Below are positions 793 to 16,748 of a stretch of 21,733 nucleotides of DNA, one piece after another (the stretch's first letter is position 1; each line of letters opens with the position of its first letter). The position numbers and the translations under genes were made by a program. Location: positions 1 through 21,733 of the IMG/VR virus record IMGVR_UViG_3300025141_000899, one strand, 5' to 3'. The DNA is from a virus. A model generated the notes under the pieces. The model was not told where the DNA came from. It saw only the letters and a list, made by a program, of their open reading frames with translations, and ran no database searches.

Positions 793-809
793 ATATTATT
801 TAAATACTT
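792..809 (+). promoter_or_regulatory. Archaeal-type promoter (TATA box) for the capsid operon
   Basis: The 18-mer AATATTATTTAAATACTT contains a perfect TATA box TTTAAATA at 799-806 preceded by an A-rich BRE-like stretch. The same 18 bases recur at 12981-12998 in the only other clear promoter-like gap. With the box centred about 26 bases before initiation, transcription would start near 828, only about 6 bases before the ATG at 834, giving a nearly leaderless message. A GAGG at 821-824 could serve as ribosome binding site on read-through transcripts from upstream. Inferred from sequence only. Confidence 0.68.
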
Positions 810-6119: not shown

Positions 6120-6956
6120 ATGGTAATGGGATTTAAAGATGGAGAATTGATTGGAGCTACCAATATCCCTACTCCGACTGATAGTAGTGTGACTGGAAAT
6201 GATGGAGATACTGTGTTGTTGGTCATTGGAGACGAAACTCACGAGAGTACAACTTTTAATGACTTAAGTGCAAGTAATCATACCGTAACAGGGAATGGTA
6301 ATGTTAAACATATGAGGACATTAAGACACGGAAATGTTAGTTCAATGTATTTTGACGAGGTTGAAGATTACTTAACTATTCCTAACCACGCAGATTTTAA
6401 TTTGGGAACAGGAGATTATACAGTTGAAGCTTGGATTTATTACACAGATGTTCCTTCTTCTTCTGAGGTTTATCGGATTATGGCACAAGGAGAACTAGAA
6501 GACCATAATGGCGATTGGTGTTTTGGATTTGGACATACTGCTGTATGGGGAACAGGAGTAAGAATGAACTTAGCTATTAGGTCAGGTGGCTCAACTACTG
6601 ATTATGTTACTCCAGATTTAGTCGTTCCAACTTTCGTTAAAGATTCTTGGCACCATTTAGCAATTAGTAGGGCGAGTGGAACTTTAAAGTTTTTTTACAA
6701 TGGTGCAGAAGTTCATTCTGTATCTGATTCGTTAAGTATGACAAGTAGTAATTCAAGTGAGATAATGGTTGGTGCAAGAACTTGGGATGCAGGAACCCGT
6801 ATTGAAGAATTGCAAGGGTTTATGGATGAGATAAGAGTTAGTAAAGTTGCAAGATATACTGCTGATTTCACACCCGTTATGAGACATAATGATTATGCAA
6901 TTGAAAGCACTGTTGGTGGAAACACATATCAAATTGAAGGAAAATTAAAATTTTAG
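6120..6956 (+). CDS. LamG / concanavalin A-like lectin-domain virion protein
   Basis: 278 aa. GAGG at 6109-6112 overlaps the preceding stop and sets the start. Residues about 75-250 match LamG-type concanavalin A-like lectin/glucanase domains: SMYFDEVEDYLTIP (75-88), DYTVEAWIYY (99-108), WHHLAISRASGTLKFFYNG (177-195) and LQGFMDEIRVSKVARYTADF (231-250). The DEIRVSKVARYT ending is especially diagnostic. Such domains bind glycans on cell surfaces. The N-terminal 70 residues (MVMGFKDGEL...) are unlike the domain and may attach the protein to the virion; the same ten-codon beginning reappears as a remnant at 6967. First of three LamG genes; likely displayed on head or tail for host glycan contact. 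No hydrolase active-site motif recognised. Confidence 0.75.
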   Translation: MVMGFKDGELIGATNIPTPTDSSVTGNDGDTVLLVIGDETHESTTFNDLSASNHTVTGNGNVKHMRTLRHGNVSSMYFDEVEDYLTIPNHADFNLGTGDYTVEAWIYYTDVPSSSEVYRIMAQGELEDHNGDWCFGFGHTAVWGTGVRMNLAIRSGGSTTDYVTPDLVVPTFVKDSWHHLAISRASGTLKFFYNGAEVHSVSDSLSMTSSNSSEIMVGARTWDAGTRIEELQGFMDEIRVSKVARYTADFTPVMRHNDYAIESTVGGNTYQIEGKLKF

Positions 6957-7000: not shown

Positions 7001-7261
7001 ATGGCAGACGTAATTGATGAAGCTTTGTCCGATAAGAAATTATCAGACTTGCAAAGTGCTAAACTTAAAAGTGCAGCAGTTAAAGCATTAACTAAAGCTG
7101 ATGTGGAAAAAGCAATTCCATTATTAAAAGAAGTGGCGAAGAATAATGGTCATTCGGCTATTGCTCACAAACTTGGATTAACACAACAACAAGTGGCTAA
7201 GATTCATAAAAAGATGATGGCTAAAGTGAACGAACTAACACCGAGAGAAGCAATTGAATAA
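7001..7261 (+). CDS. Small helix-turn-helix protein
   Basis: 86 aa, all-helical by pattern. Residues about 50-72 (GHSAIAHKLGLTQQQVAKIHK) fit a helix-turn-helix of the sigma-70 region 4 / transposase-HTH style: a small residue in helix 1, G at the turn (L-G-L-T), then recognition helix QQQVAKIHK. The first 45 residues form two amphipathic helices (SDLQSAKLKSAAVKALTKAD) that could dimerise. It has no second domain. Such a protein is unexpected among fibre genes: it may regulate late transcription, or the fold may have been reused in a structural role. A strong ribosome site suggests real expression. Only one base separates its stop from the next ATG at 7263, so the two are translationally coupled. 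Confidence 0.5.
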   Translation: MADVIDEALSDKKLSDLQSAKLKSAAVKALTKADVEKAIPLLKEVAKNNGHSAIAHKLGLTQQQVAKIHKKMMAKVNELTPREAIE

Positions 7262-7262
7262 A

Positions 7263-8531
7263 ATGAGCTTACTAACTAAGAACAGTACACCAGCTGAAAG
7301 AGGAAGAGGCTGTTTATTTGTGGAACAATTAATTGATGCAAATAGTGTTGCCGCTAATGGTGCAGCAATAACTGGAACTCCAACTTTCAGTAATGGACTA
7401 GTCTTAACTGGAAGTGAATGTTTATTGTATAATTACGCTCCTTGGGGTGATGTGGGTGATTATAGTGTTAATATTGATATAACCCATATTTCTGGAAGAG
7501 GGTCGGCTCAAGTAATAGCACATTGGGGAACTGGAATTAATGACGAAGCAGGATATATAAAAATTGATGCTGATGATACAATTAGAATGGGTGCGAATAA
7601 TGCTCACCAACCATTTACTGGAACAGGAATTCCGTTAAGCAGTGGTCGTCATACAATTACTGTACGCTTTAATGGTGCTTCAGCCAGAAGTGTGTTTTTG
7701 GATGGAGTTCAATTAAGTGGTGGAAGTAGTGGAGGAGGAGCAGGAGTAACTGATACTGCAATTGCTATTGGTTCGGAAATTGGTGGAACTAATAAATATA
7801 TTGGAACAATCCATAGTGTTAAAATGTTTAGTGAAATGTTAACATTACAAGAGCATACCGATATTTATAATGGAGAGGTTTATTCTTATCGTAATGAATC
7901 AATTATGGATTTACCGATGGATTTTGCTAATAATGACCCAACTAATGGATTAGTTAAAGATGTAAGTGGAAATGGAAACGATGCAACAATGCCAGGTGGA
8001 ACTTCTGACCCAGTTAAGAATACACACATTAATGGTTATGAATTTGATGGTACGAATGATTATTTAATTTTACCCAACCTTGGATTCTCAGCAGGGAGTG
8101 AATATACTGTGTCTATTATGAGTAGGTTAGATAGGTTATTGGGAAGTGACACTTGGATAAATTTTGGGTATAATTCTCCAGAATCTGATGGATGGGTAAT
8201 TCAAGAATCAGCAGGGACTTATAGGGTTTATAATGCAGGAAATAATGCAGTTGTTGCAAATGTTCCAACTCAATTAGGCCAATGGCTTCATTGGGTAGTA
8301 ACTCACGATGGTACAGATTTAAAGGTATATTTAAATGGAGAATATAGAAATACACTTGCTGCGTTTAGTTATGATTACACTACAACATATTATCTTGGGA
8401 TTGAAGCAGCTACACCATTTAAACCATATCAAGGCTCATTAGCTTCTTGTAAAGTATGGAATTCTGAATTAACACCATTACAAATCCAAGACTTATACAA
8501 TAACGAACTAAAAAGGGTGAATAACAAATGA
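7263..8531 (+). CDS. Double LamG / concanavalin A-like lectin virion protein
   Basis: 422 aa from ATG 7263; an in-frame TTG at 7254 inside the previous gene is less likely. Two LamG-type lectin domains lie in tandem. Domain 1 covers about residues 35-205 (GRHTITVRFNGASARSVFLD 128-147, NKYIGTIHSVKMFSEMLT 177-194). Domain 2 covers about 215-415 and has the full set of signatures: KDVSGNGNDAT (232-242), YEFDGTNDYL (259-268), WLHWVVTHDGTDLKVYLNG (341-359) and YQGSLASCKVWNSELTPLQI (389-408). A Gly/Ser loop (152-161) interrupts domain 1. No signal peptide or membrane helix, so it is a virion component rather than a secreted enzyme. It overlaps the next LamG gene by ATGA, so the two are co-translated. 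Confidence 0.75.
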   Translation: MSLLTKNSTPAERGRGCLFVEQLIDANSVAANGAAITGTPTFSNGLVLTGSECLLYNYAPWGDVGDYSVNIDITHISGRGSAQVIAHWGTGINDEAGYIKIDADDTIRMGANNAHQPFTGTGIPLSSGRHTITVRFNGASARSVFLDGVQLSGGSSGGGAGVTDTAIAIGSEIGGTNKYIGTIHSVKMFSEMLTLQEHTDIYNGEVYSYRNESIMDLPMDFANNDPTNGLVKDVSGNGNDATMPGGTSDPVKNTHINGYEFDGTNDYLILPNLGFSAGSEYTVSIMSRLDRLLGSDTWINFGYNSPESDGWVIQESAGTYRVYNAGNNAVVANVPTQLGQWLHWVVTHDGTDLKVYLNGEYRNTLAAFSYDYTTTYYLGIEAATPFKPYQGSLASCKVWNSELTPLQIQDLYNNELKRVNNK

Positions 8532-10510
8532 GCATAATCCAACAATTAAAAACTGAAGGCGTATTAAAACTTTATATGGATTTTAGAAGTGGGACTTATA
8601 GCGATTGGAGTGGTAATGATAATCATGGAACTCCAACTGATGTTTATCTGGATAAAGCAGGAGTAAGGTTTGTAAACCCAGCTGCAGCTGGTACTAATTT
8701 AGTAAGCGTTCCAAACACGTCTGATTTTAATTTTGGAACTTCAACTGATTTTAGTATTTATATTTGGATTAAATCGGTTGACGATTTATCTGCTAGGAAT
8801 TTAAGATTGTTTTCAAACAGTGACCTTACTGGTGGTTGTTTTGCAGATATTCAAAATAATTTGGTTAGAATATTTTTTGAAGCAGGAGCATCATATACAT
8901 TAGCATTTGACAGTTCAGTAGAAACAACAATTCCTGCCCATTTATGTTGGACTTTTGATAGAGATGGAAGTGGACTTGGATATTATAATGGTGGATTGGT
9001 TGCAACTACAGCAACTAACCCTGGAGATATAAATGAAGATTTAGATACAAGTAATCCTTTACAAATTGGAAAGGTTCTAACTCAAACAGCCAATATGTTT
9101 GATGGGGACTGGAAATCATTTATAATTGTTAATAGAGTTTTAACCGCCACTGAAGTAAGTCAGATTAAAGCAGAATTAGAAAATACATCTTGGCCAACTA
9201 AATCGAAAGGTTCAAGAGGAAGTGATTACTTGATAGAACAAGACACTTCATTAGTTGGTGCTTATGATATGAAACCAACCGCTGGTGTTGTAGTTGATGA
9301 AAGTGGGAATAATAATGATATGAGCATTATTGGTGATGGATTTCATACTAGAACTCCTTTTGGAAATGGGATTGATTTCTTAACAGCAAATGGGAATTAT
9401 CTTAACAAAGCATCATTTAACAATTTACCTTCAACAGCAATAACTGTTTCAGCTTGGACTAAAACTCACGCCAATGTTGATTGGAATGATATTGTTCAAA
9501 CAGATAATTGGGATACTTCAGCAGGAACTTGGATATTATACACCAATTCTCTTGGAAGAGCAGACTTTGGAATTGCAGAAGCAGGTTCAGTTCAAAATTT
9601 AGCACAATCAGCAACTGGAAGAATTGTGGCAGGATTTTGGAATCACATAGTTGGAACTTATGATGGAACTACTGTTAAAGTTTATGTTGATGGAGTTATC
9701 GGACCAACAACTGCAACAGTTACTCAGGCACTAGATACTACTGAAAATATTTCTATCGCACAAGATTGTCAACAAATAATCTCAAATGTTAAAATCTACA
9801 ACGAGGCTAAAGACCAAGCTTGGGTTACTAAAGAATATGAAAACGGGGCTAAAACAGTTAGTTATAAAACTGATTGGTTCTCTTTAGAAATTGATGGTAT
9901 TACTGCTGGACAAATAGGTGGAACTGATTTTAATGTTAAAAGTGGAACGTGGGATATTGAACATGATGAACCATTTAAAACTTTAGTTTGTGCAAGTTCA
10001 GGATATTGTACTGTACCACCAAGTGGATTTAATAGTAGTCCAACGGAAGCAGCTTATGGTACTTGGGAATTTACATTAAAGAAAGTTAATGGGTCTGGTG
10101 GATTCGTGTTTATGTTTTCAGCTAGTGATGACGATGATTGGAATGCTGGAACTCAAAATGGATATACACTTCATATTGACAGTAATGAAAGAGTTAGGCT
10201 TAGGAAAGTAACCAATGGGTCAGCTTCGGATTTGTTTTATACAGATGTTAGTTATATAGACTTAAACACTTTTTACACTTACAGAATAACGAGAACTAAT
10301 TTAGGGGAATGGACTGCTTACATTAAAGGAGGAGCTTATGTTGACTGGACTTTAATAACACCTTCCGTTGGAACAAACCCCGCAACAGAAAATACATTTA
10401 CAACTGCCAATTATATTGTCTTTTCAGGAACAACTAATAATGTACTTGTATTGGGAGAGTTAGGAGGAGATAACGCAATTGTGAAAAGGGTTGGAGTTTA
10501 TAATGATTGA
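8528..10510 (+). CDS. Large virion protein with three concanavalin-like domains
   Basis: 660 aa; start ATG 8528 overlaps the preceding stop (ATGA). Three jelly-roll domains are visible. Domain 1, about 10-215: DWSGNDNHGTPT (26-37), DFNFGTSTDFSIYIWIKS (66-83), VNRVLTATEVSQIKAEL (201-217). Domain 2, about 240-435: DESGNNNDMSI (257-267), AITVSAWTKT (304-313), WNHIVGTYDGTTVKVYVDG (371-389), ISNVKIYNEA (418-427). Domain 3, about 445-658, is a divergent concanavalin/DUF1080-like fold: GTWDIEHDEPFKTLV, GTWEFTLKKVNGSGGFVFMF, TFYTYRITRTNLGEWTAYIKG. The first two would bind glycans; domain 3 resembles families found in glycan-binding and glycan-hydrolysing proteins, but no catalytic residues are evident. 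It is the largest member of the lectin cluster and overlaps the next gene by 8 bases. Confidence 0.72.
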   Translation: MSIIQQLKTEGVLKLYMDFRSGTYSDWSGNDNHGTPTDVYLDKAGVRFVNPAAAGTNLVSVPNTSDFNFGTSTDFSIYIWIKSVDDLSARNLRLFSNSDLTGGCFADIQNNLVRIFFEAGASYTLAFDSSVETTIPAHLCWTFDRDGSGLGYYNGGLVATTATNPGDINEDLDTSNPLQIGKVLTQTANMFDGDWKSFIIVNRVLTATEVSQIKAELENTSWPTKSKGSRGSDYLIEQDTSLVGAYDMKPTAGVVVDESGNNNDMSIIGDGFHTRTPFGNGIDFLTANGNYLNKASFNNLPSTAITVSAWTKTHANVDWNDIVQTDNWDTSAGTWILYTNSLGRADFGIAEAGSVQNLAQSATGRIVAGFWNHIVGTYDGTTVKVYVDGVIGPTTATVTQALDTTENISIAQDCQQIISNVKIYNEAKDQAWVTKEYENGAKTVSYKTDWFSLEIDGITAGQIGGTDFNVKSGTWDIEHDEPFKTLVCASSGYCTVPPSGFNSSPTEAAYGTWEFTLKKVNGSGGFVFMFSASDDDDWNAGTQNGYTLHIDSNERVRLRKVTNGSASDLFYTDVSYIDLNTFYTYRITRTNLGEWTAYIKGGAYVDWTLITPSVGTNPATENTFTTANYIVFSGTTNNVLVLGELGGDNAIVKRVGVYND

Positions 10511-12594: not shown

Positions 12595-12982
12595 TTGGAA
12601 AGAGTTCCAAAAGAAGTTATTATTAGCTGTTGGTTTTCAAGTGGAAGCTGAAATTAACAATCAAATTAATAGTATGCGGTTGGTTGATACAGGCACTTTT
12701 AAAAGTAGAACAAAAGCAGAAGTTGTTAACGGAGAACTGATAATTACAAATTCTGCACCTTATGCTAAGTATTTAGAGTATGGAACACTTGAATACTTTA
12801 GGAAATTTGGGAAAGAAAGTTTTCCTACAACACCAGACCCTAAGAAAAAAGATATGAGACCAATTCAAAGAAAGGCTTTTCCTAGAGGAATGCAACCTTT
12901 CGCACCATTTAGAAGAGTGCTTTACAACCAAAATAAGATGGCTGAACTGATAACTAAAGCGGTTAAAGGTGCGAGTCGATAA
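12554..12982 (+). CDS. Neck / tail-completion protein, HK97 gp10-like
   Basis: 142 aa from ATG 12554 (an in-frame GTG at 12545 is an alternative; neither has a strong ribosome site, so coupling with the upstream miniprotein is likely). The HK97 gp10-like signature is clear: RLVDTGTFKSRTKAEV (42-57), APYAKYLEYGT (68-78), and C-terminal QPFAPFRRVLYNQ (114-126), equivalent to VDTG.L..S....V...a.YA.y.E.GT...... QPF..PA. Residues 81-113 are a lysine/proline-rich insertion. The family acts at the neck between head-closure protein and tail terminator. The following promoter marks the end of this unit. Confidence 0.82.
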   Translation: MILNHEGQRYEITNWKEFQKKLLLAVGFQVEAEINNQINSMRLVDTGTFKSRTKAEVVNGELIITNSAPYAKYLEYGTLEYFRKFGKESFPTTPDPKKKDMRPIQRKAFPRGMQPFAPFRRVLYNQNKMAELITKAVKGASR

Positions 12983-12998
12983 TATTATTTAAATACTT
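12981..12998 (+). promoter_or_regulatory. Archaeal-type promoter (TATA box) for the tail-tube operon
   Basis: Identical 18-mer to 792-809, again starting within the stop codon of the previous gene. TATA box TTTAAATA lies at 12988-12995, giving a predicted start near 13018. Between it and the ATG at 13046 lies a seven-codon frame (ATG 13026, MDNGASR) that ends by ATGA overlap with that start, and GGAG at 13034-13037 provides a ribosome site. Identity of the two boxes implies use by the same late transcription machinery. Confidence 0.68.
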
Positions 12999-13045
12999 CA
13001 ACAGTTTAACAATTATCTATCCAAGATGGATAATGGAGCGTCAAG

Positions 13046-13795
13046 ATGACAAAAGCTAAAATTGAGCCAGATAGAATAATTACGAACTTCTTACGAAACA
13101 ATTTAACAGACCCTAATGGTTCAAGAAGCGGTCAATGGATTTATCCTGATTTTCCAAGAGTTCAAGGACTTGGAGATAATTCATTTCCTCGTATTGGAAT
13201 CACACTTCTTTCTGAAAGCAGCGAATATATGGGAATCAATGATGATGCTCAATTTGAAACAATCATAGTTCAAATAGATGTGTTTGCAAAAAAAGGAAAT
13301 GGTCAATCAGTAACAATAAGTGACGAAGCCATAGGAACAGTTAGTTCCAGTTTTAATTCTAATCGTTTAACTTATGAATATGTTCCAAGCTCGGTTACTA
13401 ATATTAAGCATAATGCAGTTAGTTATGGAACTGTAACAAAACAAAACACTAACACAGATTTTAGTACACCAGCAGGAATGAGTGGTGACGTGATTGAATG
13501 GGCAGAAAGCACAGGCGACTTAAACTTAAATGCAACCGATGTAACTGCAGATGATGGTGAAGCAATAACTAGCACTTCAGTTATTTATTTGGAAGGTAAG
13601 AAAATGTGTCAGTATCTTGCAAGAGAGATTGTAAAGGCATTCAGAGGAAGTTGGAGGACGGATACTACTCTTAATGGTTTATTCTATCCTATAAAGGTGA
13701 ACAATTTTCCTCAACCGTTAGACGAGGAATTAGGAGTATTTAGACAAACTCTGGAATATCAATTTAGAGCATTCAATGCTGGAGAGGGATTATAA
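13046..13795 (+). CDS. Tail terminator (tail completion) protein with inserted domain
   Basis: 249 aa. The two ends fit the tail-terminator fold: a helix DRIITNFLRNNL (9-20), strand FPRIGITLLSESSEYMGI (47-64), strand FETIIVQIDVFAKK (70-83), helix KKMCQYLAREIVKAFRG (185-201), and final strands FRQTLEYQFRAFN (232-244). The pattern VxIDVFAKK followed by a helix is usual for this family. The middle, about 84-180, is an extra beta-rich insertion (YEYVPSSVTNIKHNAVSYG; then Asp/Thr-rich), making the protein nearly twice the common ~130 aa size. Position between gp10-like and tail-tube genes agrees. It caps the tail tube and joins it to the neck. First gene after the 12981 promoter. Confidence 0.65.
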   Translation: MTKAKIEPDRIITNFLRNNLTDPNGSRSGQWIYPDFPRVQGLGDNSFPRIGITLLSESSEYMGINDDAQFETIIVQIDVFAKKGNGQSVTISDEAIGTVSSSFNSNRLTYEYVPSSVTNIKHNAVSYGTVTKQNTNTDFSTPAGMSGDVIEWAESTGDLNLNATDVTADDGEAITSTSVIYLEGKKMCQYLAREIVKAFRGSWRTDTTLNGLFYPIKVNNFPQPLDEELGVFRQTLEYQFRAFNAGEGL

Positions 13796-13796
13796 A

Positions 13797-13934
13797 ATGG
13801 TTAAAAAATATGTTAAAATAAAAGGAATGACTCCTGCCTTAGTTGAAGAATCAGAGATTCCCAACCTAATGGAGAAAAAAGTAAAGAAGAAAAAATCCAA
13901 GAAGGAGGATAAAAAAGAAAATGGCAACGATTGA
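13797..13934 (+). CDS. 45-aa lysine-rich miniprotein overlapping tail tube
   Basis: ATG 13797 lies one base after the terminator stop (TAAAATGG) and the frame runs to TGA 13932-13934, overlapping the tail-tube start by 14 bases. Residues 1-25 (MVKKYVKIKGMTPALVEESE) may form a short strand and helix; residues 26-42 are almost wholly Lys with Ser/Glu/Asp. The AAGGAGG at 13901-13907 that serves the tail tube is inside this frame, so translation through it could tune tube synthesis. Similar position-specific small basic proteins occur in other tailed viruses, but I do not recognise this one. Function unknown; a tube-assembly or coupling role is inferred from place only. Confidence 0.45.
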   Translation: MVKKYVKIKGMTPALVEESEIPNLMEKKVKKKKSKKEDKKENGND

Positions 13935-14949
13935 ATATTACAAAGGATTTGATACTTACGTTATTTATGGAGAAGAGTCAGTTTATGGAACAGCAGTAGC
14001 TCCAAGTACAACTAACTTTCCAGGTAGAATCCAAAACTTCACATTATCAATGGCTAACAATAGTTTTAGAAGTCAAGGATTAGGTGATGGAAGAAATGCA
14101 ACAGGTGTTTATTTAGGGCCTTTTGATGTTAGTGGAAGTATGGATTTTCAAATAAGTGACCCAACATTTTTACAATACGCTATCGGAACAAGAAGTGGAG
14201 GAGGAACTTTAGCAGACCCTTACGAATTACAAGAAGCAGAGAACATTGGTTTTGATGCAGCAAACATTCCAAGTCTTACTTTAGAAGTTGGAAGTGAAGG
14301 AGATACAGTTGATGATGAAATAACTGTTAGTGGTGTTGTACTTAATGGATTAACAATAACAGCAACTCAAGGAGAAATAATCACTGCGAATACAGATTGG
14401 GTTGGTCAAACAGTTCTTACAAGTGCTACTTTACAATCAGTTAGTGCTCAAACAGCTAAACCTTGGTTGTTCCACGATGCAACAGTAACAGTGGGAAGTG
14501 ACACATTGCAATGCACAAGTTTCTCAATGACCATTACGAATAACTTAACTCCTTATAGAAATTTGGGAAGTAGATTAATTGCTCAACCAAGTACTGGATT
14601 AAGACAATATGATTTCACAGTAACTGTAAGAAAGAAAACAGATAATACTGCAAGCACTTTAAGTGGAATTGAATTAAGAGAATTATTCTTTGGAGCAGCA
14701 TCAGCAACAGCACCAGCATCTGGAATTTCAAATGCAAGTAGCACAGTTAGTCTTGATATTAATGAAGGAACTGGAGCAAGTGGTGAACGAGTTATGAACA
14801 TTGACTTGGCTAGTGCATCATTTGATAGTTGGAGTGAACCAGTAGAGTTAGATGGGGGAGTAATTGAAGTAACAGTGACTGGAATAGCATTAAGTGGATT
14901 AGCTGATGGGGGAGTAAATGTTCCAATTAGATGGTACACAATATCATAA
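13921..14949 (+). CDS. Major tail tube protein
   Basis: 342 aa, AAGGAGG 13 bases before ATG. The N-terminus is typical of phage tail-tube proteins: YVIYGEESVYGTAVAP (13-28), GRIQNFTLSMANNSFRSQGL (35-54), a conserved DGRNATG turn, then DVSGSMDFQISDPTFLQYAI (69-88). Later strands are SFSMTITNNLTPYRNLGSR (199-217) and LRQYDFTVTVRKKTD. Residues about 100-170 and 265-330 form additional beta modules, so the tube may be decorated outside. It assembles in hexameric rings around the tape measure. Its own T-tract terminator follows directly, as expected for a gene whose product is needed in bulk compared with chaperone and tape measure. Gene order (terminator, tube, G/GT, tape measure) is diagnostic. 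Confidence 0.82.
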   Translation: MATIEYYKGFDTYVIYGEESVYGTAVAPSTTNFPGRIQNFTLSMANNSFRSQGLGDGRNATGVYLGPFDVSGSMDFQISDPTFLQYAIGTRSGGGTLADPYELQEAENIGFDAANIPSLTLEVGSEGDTVDDEITVSGVVLNGLTITATQGEIITANTDWVGQTVLTSATLQSVSAQTAKPWLFHDATVTVGSDTLQCTSFSMTITNNLTPYRNLGSRLIAQPSTGLRQYDFTVTVRKKTDNTASTLSGIELRELFFGAASATAPASGISNASSTVSLDINEGTGASGERVMNIDLASASFDSWSEPVELDGGVIEVTVTGIALSGLADGGVNVPIRWYTIS

Positions 14950-14968: not shown

Positions 14969-15001
14969 TTACAAACGACAAGATGTCAGGAGGAATCCAA
15001 G

Positions 15002-15328
15002 ATGGATGAAAATAAAATAAAGTTGAGTTGCGGAGAAGTAACTCTGAAGAAACCAAAAGCAAAACATTTCTCCCACGCTATGGAAGAAGCAGAAATTAGC
15101 AATGGAGAATTAAAAATGACTAAGATGTTTAATATCTTATTGCCTTTTTGTATTGGACAACACCCTTGGGGTATGACACCAATCAGAAAAGCTATTGAAG
15201 AATTAAGTGTTGAAGATTATGTTTTGTTATTTAATCAGATGAAAACTTTGATTAATATAAGCGGTGATGCCTCGGGAAAATCAGAGCCGCTGTCAACCGA
15301 AACAGACTCCCTGAAGAGCAGTGGCTAA
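15002..15328 (+). CDS. Tail assembly chaperone G-like protein
   Basis: 108 aa, CAGGAGGAATCCAAGATGG start. N-terminal strands (NKIKLSCGEVTLKKPKAKH) then helices (HFSHAMEEAEISN; MTKMFNILLPFCIG; PIRKAIEELSVEDYVLLFNQ) match the pattern of tail assembly chaperones placed between tube and tape measure. The last 15 residues after the slip site (SEPLSTETDSLKSSG) are a low-complexity tail, as in other G proteins. A perfect -1 slippery heptamer lies in phase at 15274-15280 and extends the product into an overlapping frame (see 15280-15498). G and GT coat the tape measure and recruit tube subunits; neither is expected in the finished virion. Confidence 0.78.
   Translation: MDENKIKLSCGEVTLKKPKAKHFSHAMEEAEISNGELKMTKMFNILLPFCIGQHPWGMTPIRKAIEELSVEDYVLLFNQMKTLINISGDASGKSEPLSTETDSLKSSG
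15274..15280 (+). other. -1 ribosomal frameshift site GGGAAAA (G/GT)
   Basis: In the G frame the bases read G GGA AAA, the X XXY YYZ form required for tandem -1 slippage. Lambda uses G GGA AAG at the equivalent place. After slippage the next codon is ATC at 15280, and the new frame stays open for 72 codons. The surrounding bases (15261-15300) are richer in G and C than the rest of the window; GCGG (15261-15264) and CCGC (15287-15290) could pair around the site. A stimulatory structure was not established. Confidence 0.82.
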
Positions 15329-15498
15329 GAAAAAAATTTATCTACTACTTTTTCGTAGACAAGGGAATAACTCCTGAACAAGTTGATGAAATGAGGCAAG
15401 AGGATGTAGATGCCGTCTTGCTTATCAATCAATATACTGCGGAAAAGCAGGAAAGAGAACAAAAAAGGCAACAATCAAAATGGTCGAACCAACAATAA
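15280..15498 (+). CDS. T part of the GT frameshift fusion (tail assembly chaperone)
   Basis: Read in the -1 frame after 15280 this encodes 72 residues, joined to the first 93 of G to give a 165-aa GT. The T part begins IRAAVNRNRLPEEQWLRKKF, then IYYFFVDKGITPEQVDEMRQ and a helix EDVDAVLLINQ, ending in a charged tail (EKQEREQKRQQ). It has no start codon or ribosome site near its beginning, and it ends 18 bases inside the tape measure gene, exactly the lambda G/GT/H arrangement. In lambda the T domain recruits tube protein while G coats the tape measure. Coding character and layout make the assignment firm, although frameshift efficiency is unknown. Confidence 0.8.
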   Translation: MRAAVNRNRLPEEQWLRKKFIYYFFVDKGITPEQVDEMRQEDVDAVLLINQYTAEKQEREQKRQQSKWSNQQ

Positions 15499-16748
15499 AA
15501 GCAAAATTAGTACTGGATTCAAGTGGAATGAAAGGAGTAGCCGCTGGAGTAGGCGGTGGAACAGGAGGCGGTGGTGGAAGACAACAATCTGCTGCTGAAG
15601 GTATCAGAGGAGTTTTACATGGATTGGATTTTCCAATAGTTGGAGATGTTGGTGCTTTACTAGCAGGAGGAGTTTTACTTCTTGAAAAGATTGCACAAAT
15701 AATGAAAGCTGGTTTTGATTTCTTAACCAAATCAAGTCCTATCCTAGCAAGTTCTATTAATATTTTAAAGAAAAGTTTTGAAGTATTATTAAGACCTATT
15801 GGAGATGCTATTGGATTATTTATTAAACCTTTTGCTATTGCAATGTTAAGATTTGCAATTCCTATTTATAAAAAGTGGAGAGAGTTCCTTAGTTCTGATA
15901 AATCACAAGAAGGATTAGGACAAATCAATGAAGGAGCTAGTCAACTTGGTACTGGAATAATCACATTAGATTTTGATATGGTCAAAGAGGGATTTAAAAA
16001 TATAGTTGGTGGAATGAAAAATTTAGCAGTTAGTTTCTTTGAATTTAGCGGAAGTGAATTAGTTAATTTTTGGGGAAAATTTAAAATCTTTATTTCTGAT
16101 GCTTGGTCTTTCTTTAAAGATGTTTTCGAGAAAGTTACAGACTGGTTAGGTGAAAAGGTGGATGCTGGGTTTAGATTAGCTTGGAATTTATTTTGGGATT
16201 TCTTACGAAAAATAACTCCTGAAAGTTGGAATGAAGCACTAAGTGGAATACAAGAAGCATTGTCGGCAGCGTGGGAAAGATTCACTGAGGTTATAAGAAA
16301 ATACCCAAAGTGGATGATAGTTCTTGCTCCAATGGTAATAGCTTTGGAAGGATTATTTGCAGCGATGGATTTTCAAGGAATGATGGATAATTTAAAAGCT
16401 AAGTTTGAAGAAACTTTTCCTACATTAGCAGCAGTTATTGCTTCAGTAGAAAAAGGAGGATTATTTACTGCGATATGGGATGGTCTTAAAAAGGTCGGAG
16501 AATATGTTGCTGGGGCTTTTTTAAATTTTTTCAAGGTAATGTTTACAGCAGCTCAAATAATATTTACAAGTGGTGATAAAAAAGAAGGTCTTCCTGGTGC
16601 ATTATCTGAAACAGATAAAGCGTTGACATTAAGTACTGCGGGGGTTGGGTTATTGACTACTGCTTTATTTGGAATACCTACTGCAATTACTACAGTCCAT
16701 ACAATTATAACTAAGTATGAAACTGAAGGAGATGATGGGGGGGATTAA
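15480..16748 (+). CDS. Tape measure protein (short)
   Basis: 422 aa, starting 18 bases before the T frame ends. Helical throughout after a Gly-rich linker (about 22-33, GVGGGTGGGGGR). Hydrophobic helices lie at about 53-79 (IVGDVGALLAGGVLLLEKIA), 102-130 (VLLRPIGDAIGLFIKPFAIA), 279-297 (MIVLAPMVIALEGLFAAMDF) and 384-410 (LSTAGVGLLTTALFGIPTAI); between them are Trp/Phe-rich amphipathic helices (FWGKFKIFISDAWSFFKDVF). Such hydrophobic stretches are usual for tape measures that insert in the host membrane during DNA entry. At about 0.15 nm per residue the tail would be near 60 nm, short for a siphovirus. No lysozyme or peptidase domain is present. It ends in an acidic EGDDGGD tail written with a run of seven G. 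Confidence 0.78.
   Translation: MVEPTIKAKLVLDSSGMKGVAAGVGGGTGGGGGRQQSAAEGIRGVLHGLDFPIVGDVGALLAGGVLLLEKIAQIMKAGFDFLTKSSPILASSINILKKSFEVLLRPIGDAIGLFIKPFAIAMLRFAIPIYKKWREFLSSDKSQEGLGQINEGASQLGTGIITLDFDMVKEGFKNIVGGMKNLAVSFFEFSGSELVNFWGKFKIFISDAWSFFKDVFEKVTDWLGEKVDAGFRLAWNLFWDFLRKITPESWNEALSGIQEALSAAWERFTEVIRKYPKWMIVLAPMVIALEGLFAAMDFQGMMDNLKAKFEETFPTLAAVIASVEKGGLFTAIWDGLKKVGEYVAGAFLNFFKVMFTAAQIIFTSGDKKEGLPGALSETDKALTLSTAGVGLLTTALFGIPTAITTVHTIITKYETEGDDGGD

Follow-up and report, generated by a model that had tools for sequence, protein, structure and literature searches.

The 21,733-base IMG/VR virus record IMGVR_UViG_3300025141_000899 (positions 1 to 21,733; this whole stretch is referred to as the window) carries an overlapping pair of reading frames between its tail tube and tape measure genes, as in the lambda-type G/GT arrangement. 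The locus raises two questions: whether the second frame, T, is expressed by -1 frameshifting from the first, G, and whether the virus infects an archaeon. The structural half of a tailed virus was encoded in the window, in the order Mu F-like head protein, prohead protease (weak match), SU10-type major capsid protein (MCP) and head-tail connectors, followed by the tail tube, G, the overlapping T frame and a short tape measure protein. LamG/concanavalin-type adhesin-like proteins, recognised by eye, were encoded between the capsid and connector genes (6120-6956, 7254-8531 and 8528-10510), and Laminin_G_3 matches were present in relatives. The features of the G/T region were as follows.

13921..14949, + strand: tail tube protein, the gene 5′ of G (Pfam Phage_tube_2, 4e-18; PHROG 290 minor tail protein, 2e-22)
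14988..14993, + strand: AGGAGG, Shine-Dalgarno motif of gene G by sequence, 8 nt ahead of the ATG at 15002
15002..15328, + strand: gene G, likely tail assembly chaperone of 108 aa, predicted product of normal translation (position between tube and tape measure; fold match)
15263..15267, + strand: GGTGA, Shine-Dalgarno-like, candidate stimulator on sequence grounds only, 6 nt 5′ of the heptamer
15274..15280, + strand: putative slippery heptamer G GGA AAA, in phase; heptamers of relatives fall in the same column
15280..15498, + strand: T domain in the -1 frame, 72 codons plus stop (open frame; pN/pS; helical model)
15285..15293, + strand: 5′ arm of the predicted stem, AGCCGCUGU, downstream of the heptamer (folding; pairs counted)
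15318..15326, + strand: 3′ arm of the predicted stem, GCAGUGGCU; its last base is the first of the G stop codon (all 9 pairs intact in 3 sequences)
15480..16748, + strand: tape measure protein of 422 aa, its gene beginning within T (PHROG 1535 tape measure, 1.5e-8)

As the original prediction had stated, GGGAAAA at 15274-15280 was found in phase with the ORF 15002-15328 (codons GGA, 15275-15277, and AAA, 15278-15280). The motif was not rare: three copies were counted in the window against 4.9 expected from shuffles, and its frequency, being below expectation, was dropped as an argument. Some in-phase X_XXY_YYZ heptamer within the 61-nt overlap was expected with a chance of 0.16 by codon shuffling, so that the heptamer of the window by itself is only suggestive. 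Relatives were therefore collected for comparison.

The -1 frame was open from 15280 for 72 codons (IRAAVNRNRLPEEQ...SKWSNQQ), with the TAA ending at 15498, as predicted. It did end inside the tape measure gene; the overlap, given previously as 18 bases, was 19 nt when the stop codon was counted (ATG at 15480). The first ATG, GTG or TTG of the T frame in the window was its codon 37, and T is thus predicted to be made only as the C terminus of a GT fusion. In comparisons of the window with two close relatives (G007 and G010), pN/pS was 0.28-0.33 for gene G and 0.07-0.15 for the T frame in the stretch that is read only as T. The other two frames of that stretch gave values of 1.0 to 3.4, with one value undefined for want of any synonymous change, and in the T frame the changes among the three sequences clustered at the third codon position (17, 20 and 15). 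By this substitution pattern both frames are selected at the protein level, and T is a real coding frame under purifying selection. The AlphaFold model of T was all-helical (pLDDT 88). A search of T against phage records gave no match, and a Pfam hit to ECSIT_C (E 0.0015), below the cut-off of that family, was rejected as a chance similarity of helices. A frame of this kind escapes ordinary ORF calling, and its recognition helps annotation.

Relatives were gathered by means of the capsid protein (37 loci), the T frame and the tail tube. The G and tail tube proteins of the window, each used as a single query against IMG/VR, returned no relatives, and capsid and alignment queries were needed. 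In every tube-to-tape-measure interval that was read, a G-like ORF was followed by an overlapping T frame; the order tube, G, T, tape measure held in all relatives examined and also in HHTV-2 and HCTV-2. T lay in the -1 register in 14 cases, the isolate HHTV-2 among them. An in-phase X_XXY_YYZ heptamer was present within the overlap in 11 of these, against 1.86 expected (P = 5e-9, a value that ignores relatedness: three of the sequences, those of the window, G007 and G010, are close, and the remaining relatives differ in their heptamer). On these comparative data, rather than on the window alone, the presence of the heptamer exceeds chance. The heptamers were GGGAAAA (three cases), AAAAAAA within A runs (five), AAAAAAG (two) and AAAAAAC (one). 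When the conceptual fusions were aligned blind to the site, the junction fell in column 158, near the end of G, in 12 of the 14, despite the differing heptamers, and in most fusions it was followed by I/V/L-(R/K)-x-x-(I/V).

Departures from this pattern were also found. Among the relatives with T in the -1 register, G006 had GGGGGAA followed by a stop codon and L021 had GTG GGG TAG, neither a canonical heptamer; the HHTV-2 junction, GAG GAA AAC TGA, was likewise without one. Four distinct relatives, in five records (G014, G011, G009 with the near-duplicate G016, and G015), had the overlap in the +1/-2 register, and no motif that accounts for this register was found in them. As judged from these sequences, a canonical heptamer is frequent among family members and not universal, because G006, L021 and the four +1/-2 relatives depart from it. 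The original prediction had named relatives with an intact T frame and no slippery site as evidence against it; such relatives did occur, at these edges of the family. Four relatives with a +1/-2 G/T overlap and no obvious slip motif can be inspected at L068 4348-4898, L063 5301-5811 (- strand), L061 7909-8405 and L069 10746-11223 (- strand); their T-like sequences still resembled those of the family.

Downstream of the heptamer, a 9-bp stem was predicted to start 4 nt past the site, with AGCCGCUGU paired to GCAGUGGCU. In the window, the fold had an energy of -13.5 to -14.6 kcal mol−1 (z -2.7 to -2.9), and folding from just past the site gave z values of -2.0 to -3.0 in the window, G007 and G010. 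All nine pairs were intact in these three close sequences, with one compensatory change (A-U for G-C) and two changes on one side only. Covariation in the stem was no better than in column shuffles, 162 of 500 of which scored as high, in a comparison of three sequences over a stretch that codes in two frames. Folding of 15255-15340, which had been proposed as a check, did not reveal the stem (z -0.1), since it merges into the background when the upstream bases are included; folding from 15281 gave z -2.9. Taken alone, the predicted stem is therefore moderate evidence, given the three sequences, the double coding, the covariation at shuffle level and the loss of signal with upstream bases. In G013, which has A AAA AAC, an unrelated and stronger 12-bp stem was predicted at similar spacing (z -4.5), and this speaks for a stem with a function in some members of the family; no strong stem was found in several relatives with A runs. 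Upstream of the site, the counterpart of GGTGA in G007 and G010 was G-rich and not identical in sequence.

Assignment of G was based on its position and on structure. Its AlphaFold model (pLDDT 81) had a disordered tail past residue 87, which is the slip region. Of the solved structures, 2ob9, the tail assembly chaperone of HK97, and YqbN came nearest (prob 0.97, E 0.06-0.12); the top match, 2ob9, was weak (prob 0.97, E 0.06, TM 0.50, 17% identity). Matches among viral models included several tail assembly chaperones, those of HHTV-2 and HCTV-1 among them. No significant match of the window G was obtained in Pfam or PHROG, and only weak matches to TAC_5 and TAC_7, two families of tail assembly chaperones, were seen for the G proteins of relatives. 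Profiles of G and T gave no significant match to the G and T of Saparoviridae, and homology at the sequence level is not claimed. A G/GT role is likely from gene position and the modelled fold; for the predicted tail chaperone, conservation, selection and gene position agree with a fold match that is weak but consistent.

Gene G and the T frame that overlaps it are very probably a G/GT tail assembly chaperone pair joined by -1 frameshifting, in a tailed virus whose host is most probably an archaeon. From the in-phase site, the open and selected T frame without a start of its own, the shared junction and the conserved stem we infer that slippage occurs, at a rate at which most ribosomes would read G through to the UAA at 15326-15328. 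A minority, held up by the 9-bp stem that begins 4 nt past G GGA AAA, would slip back by one base, with tRNA-Gly and tRNA-Lys re-pairing with GGG and AAA; these ribosomes would then read T to 15498, giving a GT fusion of 165 aa. By analogy with lambda, G would coat the tape measure protein, and tail tube subunits would be recruited by the T part.

Two other origins of T were weighed. T might be a small gene in its own right, with translation beginning at a start codon in T or re-initiating past the G stop codon, in which case no frameshift would be involved. HHTV-2 is annotated as two genes, and a possible T start was present at codon 4-9 both there and in L111; most relatives had no T start before codon 15, though, the first start codon in the window lies inside the conserved domain, and the conserved I/V-R-x-x-I/V motif stands directly past the junction, 5′ of any start. 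A separate T gene is accordingly very improbable. It is just as hard to credit that the change of frame is made by RNA polymerase slipping on an A run. Runs of 7-10 A, enough for transcriptional slippage, occur at the site in several relatives, but there are only four A in the window, G007 and G010, the GGG part is retained there where relatives have A runs, and a stem stands at the spacing of a ribosomal site in these three and in G013. Ribosomal -1 frameshifting is thus preferred, and what has still to be weighed is whether the virus that uses it is bacterial, contrary to the archaeal assignment.

The terminase, PrimPol and other replication genes lie beyond the window; G001, whose capsid protein is 97% identical, was the relative used to read them. 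Several matches point towards bacteria: Thermus phages came next after the best match of the large terminase (TerL) among phage records, TerL relatives in GTDB genomes were distant (22-35% identity) and mostly on bacterial MAG contigs, and the best named match of the tail tube was a Rossellomorea phage. Strong GGAGG Shine-Dalgarno motifs were also present; such motifs are used by archaea too. Against this, the MCP of the window matched only HHTV-2 among 50,697 phage records (25% identity), the best named match of the G001 TerL was HGTV-1 (3e-54), the 875-aa PrimPol-like protein of G001 matched only fuselloviruses of Sulfolobales, and an ERCC4 nuclease was present. The hallmark genes thus lay nearest to archaeal viruses. 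TTTAWATA was found 35 times 5′ of genes against 9.3 expected (z 8.8), with no signal from sigma-70 elements (z -1.4), and the same scan of three Lactococcus phages as a control gave the reverse (TATA z -0.4, sigma-70 z 4.2). A similar count of TTTAWATA came from the opposite strand (32), so composition or divergent promoters may account for some of this enrichment. A bacterial virus is, on balance, rather unlikely, and an archaeal host is probable from the nearest named relatives and the TATA boxes. The archaeal assignment made originally is in this way supported by indirect evidence (MCP, TerL, PrimPol, ERCC4 and TATA enrichment), and a direct link to a host was not found: the capsid alignment gave no match and no provirus among GTDB contigs, and 394 genomes of one phylum yielded one distant MCP and no provirus or host genome. 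That phylum search also led to a haloarchaeal provirus-like region, which was set aside as too distant to be informative. Two TATA boxes in the window are listed below.

799..806, + strand: TATA box TTTAAATA 5′ of the protease gene
12988..12995, + strand: TATA box TTTAAATA 5′ of the gene at 13046, where the run of tail genes begins

These lie in near-identical promoter-like stretches, ATTATTTAAATACTTNAAYAG, at 791-812 and 12980-13001, 5′ of 834 and 13046. Two further observations were made in relatives. Genes of preQ0/queuosine type (QueC, GTP cyclohydrolase I, PTPS and QueF-like) were present among the pooled ORFs of relatives (L054, L064-L067 and L069-L075), which suggests modified viral DNA. 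The large terminase of several relatives was split into two ORFs exactly between the ATPase and nuclease domains, at L076 7340-7420 (- strand), L072 11447-11634 (- strand), L064 3543-3873 (+ strand) and L067 5176-5825 (+ strand); it was whole in G001 and L054. The ATPase part ended in ..EML.EI* and the nuclease part restarted at a new ATG near LGADLAR. The halves adjoined in L076, and a small ORF stood between them in others, by eye HNH-like in L064 and methyltransferase-like in L067.

Taken across the relatives, the data allow a more tentative reading, which is possible and rather doubtful: that within one archaeal virus family the place of the G/T switch in the protein has stayed constant while the recoding signal was rebuilt, as GGGAAAA with a stem, as A runs, as AAAAAAC with a different 12-bp stem and as GGG beside a stop codon (L021), four distinct relatives having switched to the +1/-2 register, for which they show no known motif. 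Were this so, recoding signals, and even the direction of the shift, would have been exchanged on archaeal ribosomes under a constant demand on the protein. To our knowledge, very few cases of -1 frameshifting have been shown experimentally in archaea, and the archaeal-virus examples known to us so far are haloarchaeal and predicted from sequence. Broad, uncultivated, AT-rich and probably archaeal viruses with varied heptamers and stems at one position would offer a natural panel for the study of slippage by archaeal ribosomes.

The novelty implied by the original prediction is not supported, the mechanism being known already in archaeal viruses. According to the literature, -1 G/GT frameshifting in HVTV-1 and HCTV-1, HCTV-2 and HCTV-5 was reported in 2013 and has since been reviewed (PMC5009743; PMC8211752), and a G/GT heptamer G GGA AAT was reported for Hardycor1 in 2021 (PMC7911831). 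What is new here is the probable use of the known mechanism in a broad, uncultivated, AT-rich virus lineage. A close relation of the window to Saparoviridae (HHTV-2 and HCTV-2) was not found at that MCP identity and with those G and T profiles. HCTV-2 (Saparoviridae; genes 40/41) nevertheless shares with the window the order from MCP through tail tube and G/GT to tape measure, the -1 overlap and an in-phase heptamer (PMC5009743). The tail chaperone of its record is deposited as a joined CDS, in which AAAAAAC was read here in phase with LRKAV directly past the junction; T of the window begins IRAAV. HCTV-2 differs in its heptamer, A_AAA_AAC, in a stop codon directly past it, and in the size of G (158 aa; 108 in the window) and of T (about 163 aa; 72 in the window). 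The +1 arrangement of HF1-group viruses, which lacks a conventional slippery sequence (PMC7230728), parallels the +1/-2 relatives of the window. Hardycor1, an archaeal tailed virus, also has a GGGAAA-type heptamer close to where G ends and 5′ of the tape measure gene (PMC7911831); it is a haloarchaeal isolate, and the likeness rests on its description rather than on a comparison of sequences. HK97 gp13 (2ob9), as noted above, has the solved fold nearest to the G model, a weak match (E 0.06). In lambda, G is likewise followed by a -1 T ahead of the tape measure gene, with a G GGA AAN heptamer and an inferred low-level product (PMC5009743); its host is a bacterium, the stem after the site is a feature of the window, and the likeness is one of layout rather than of compared sequence.
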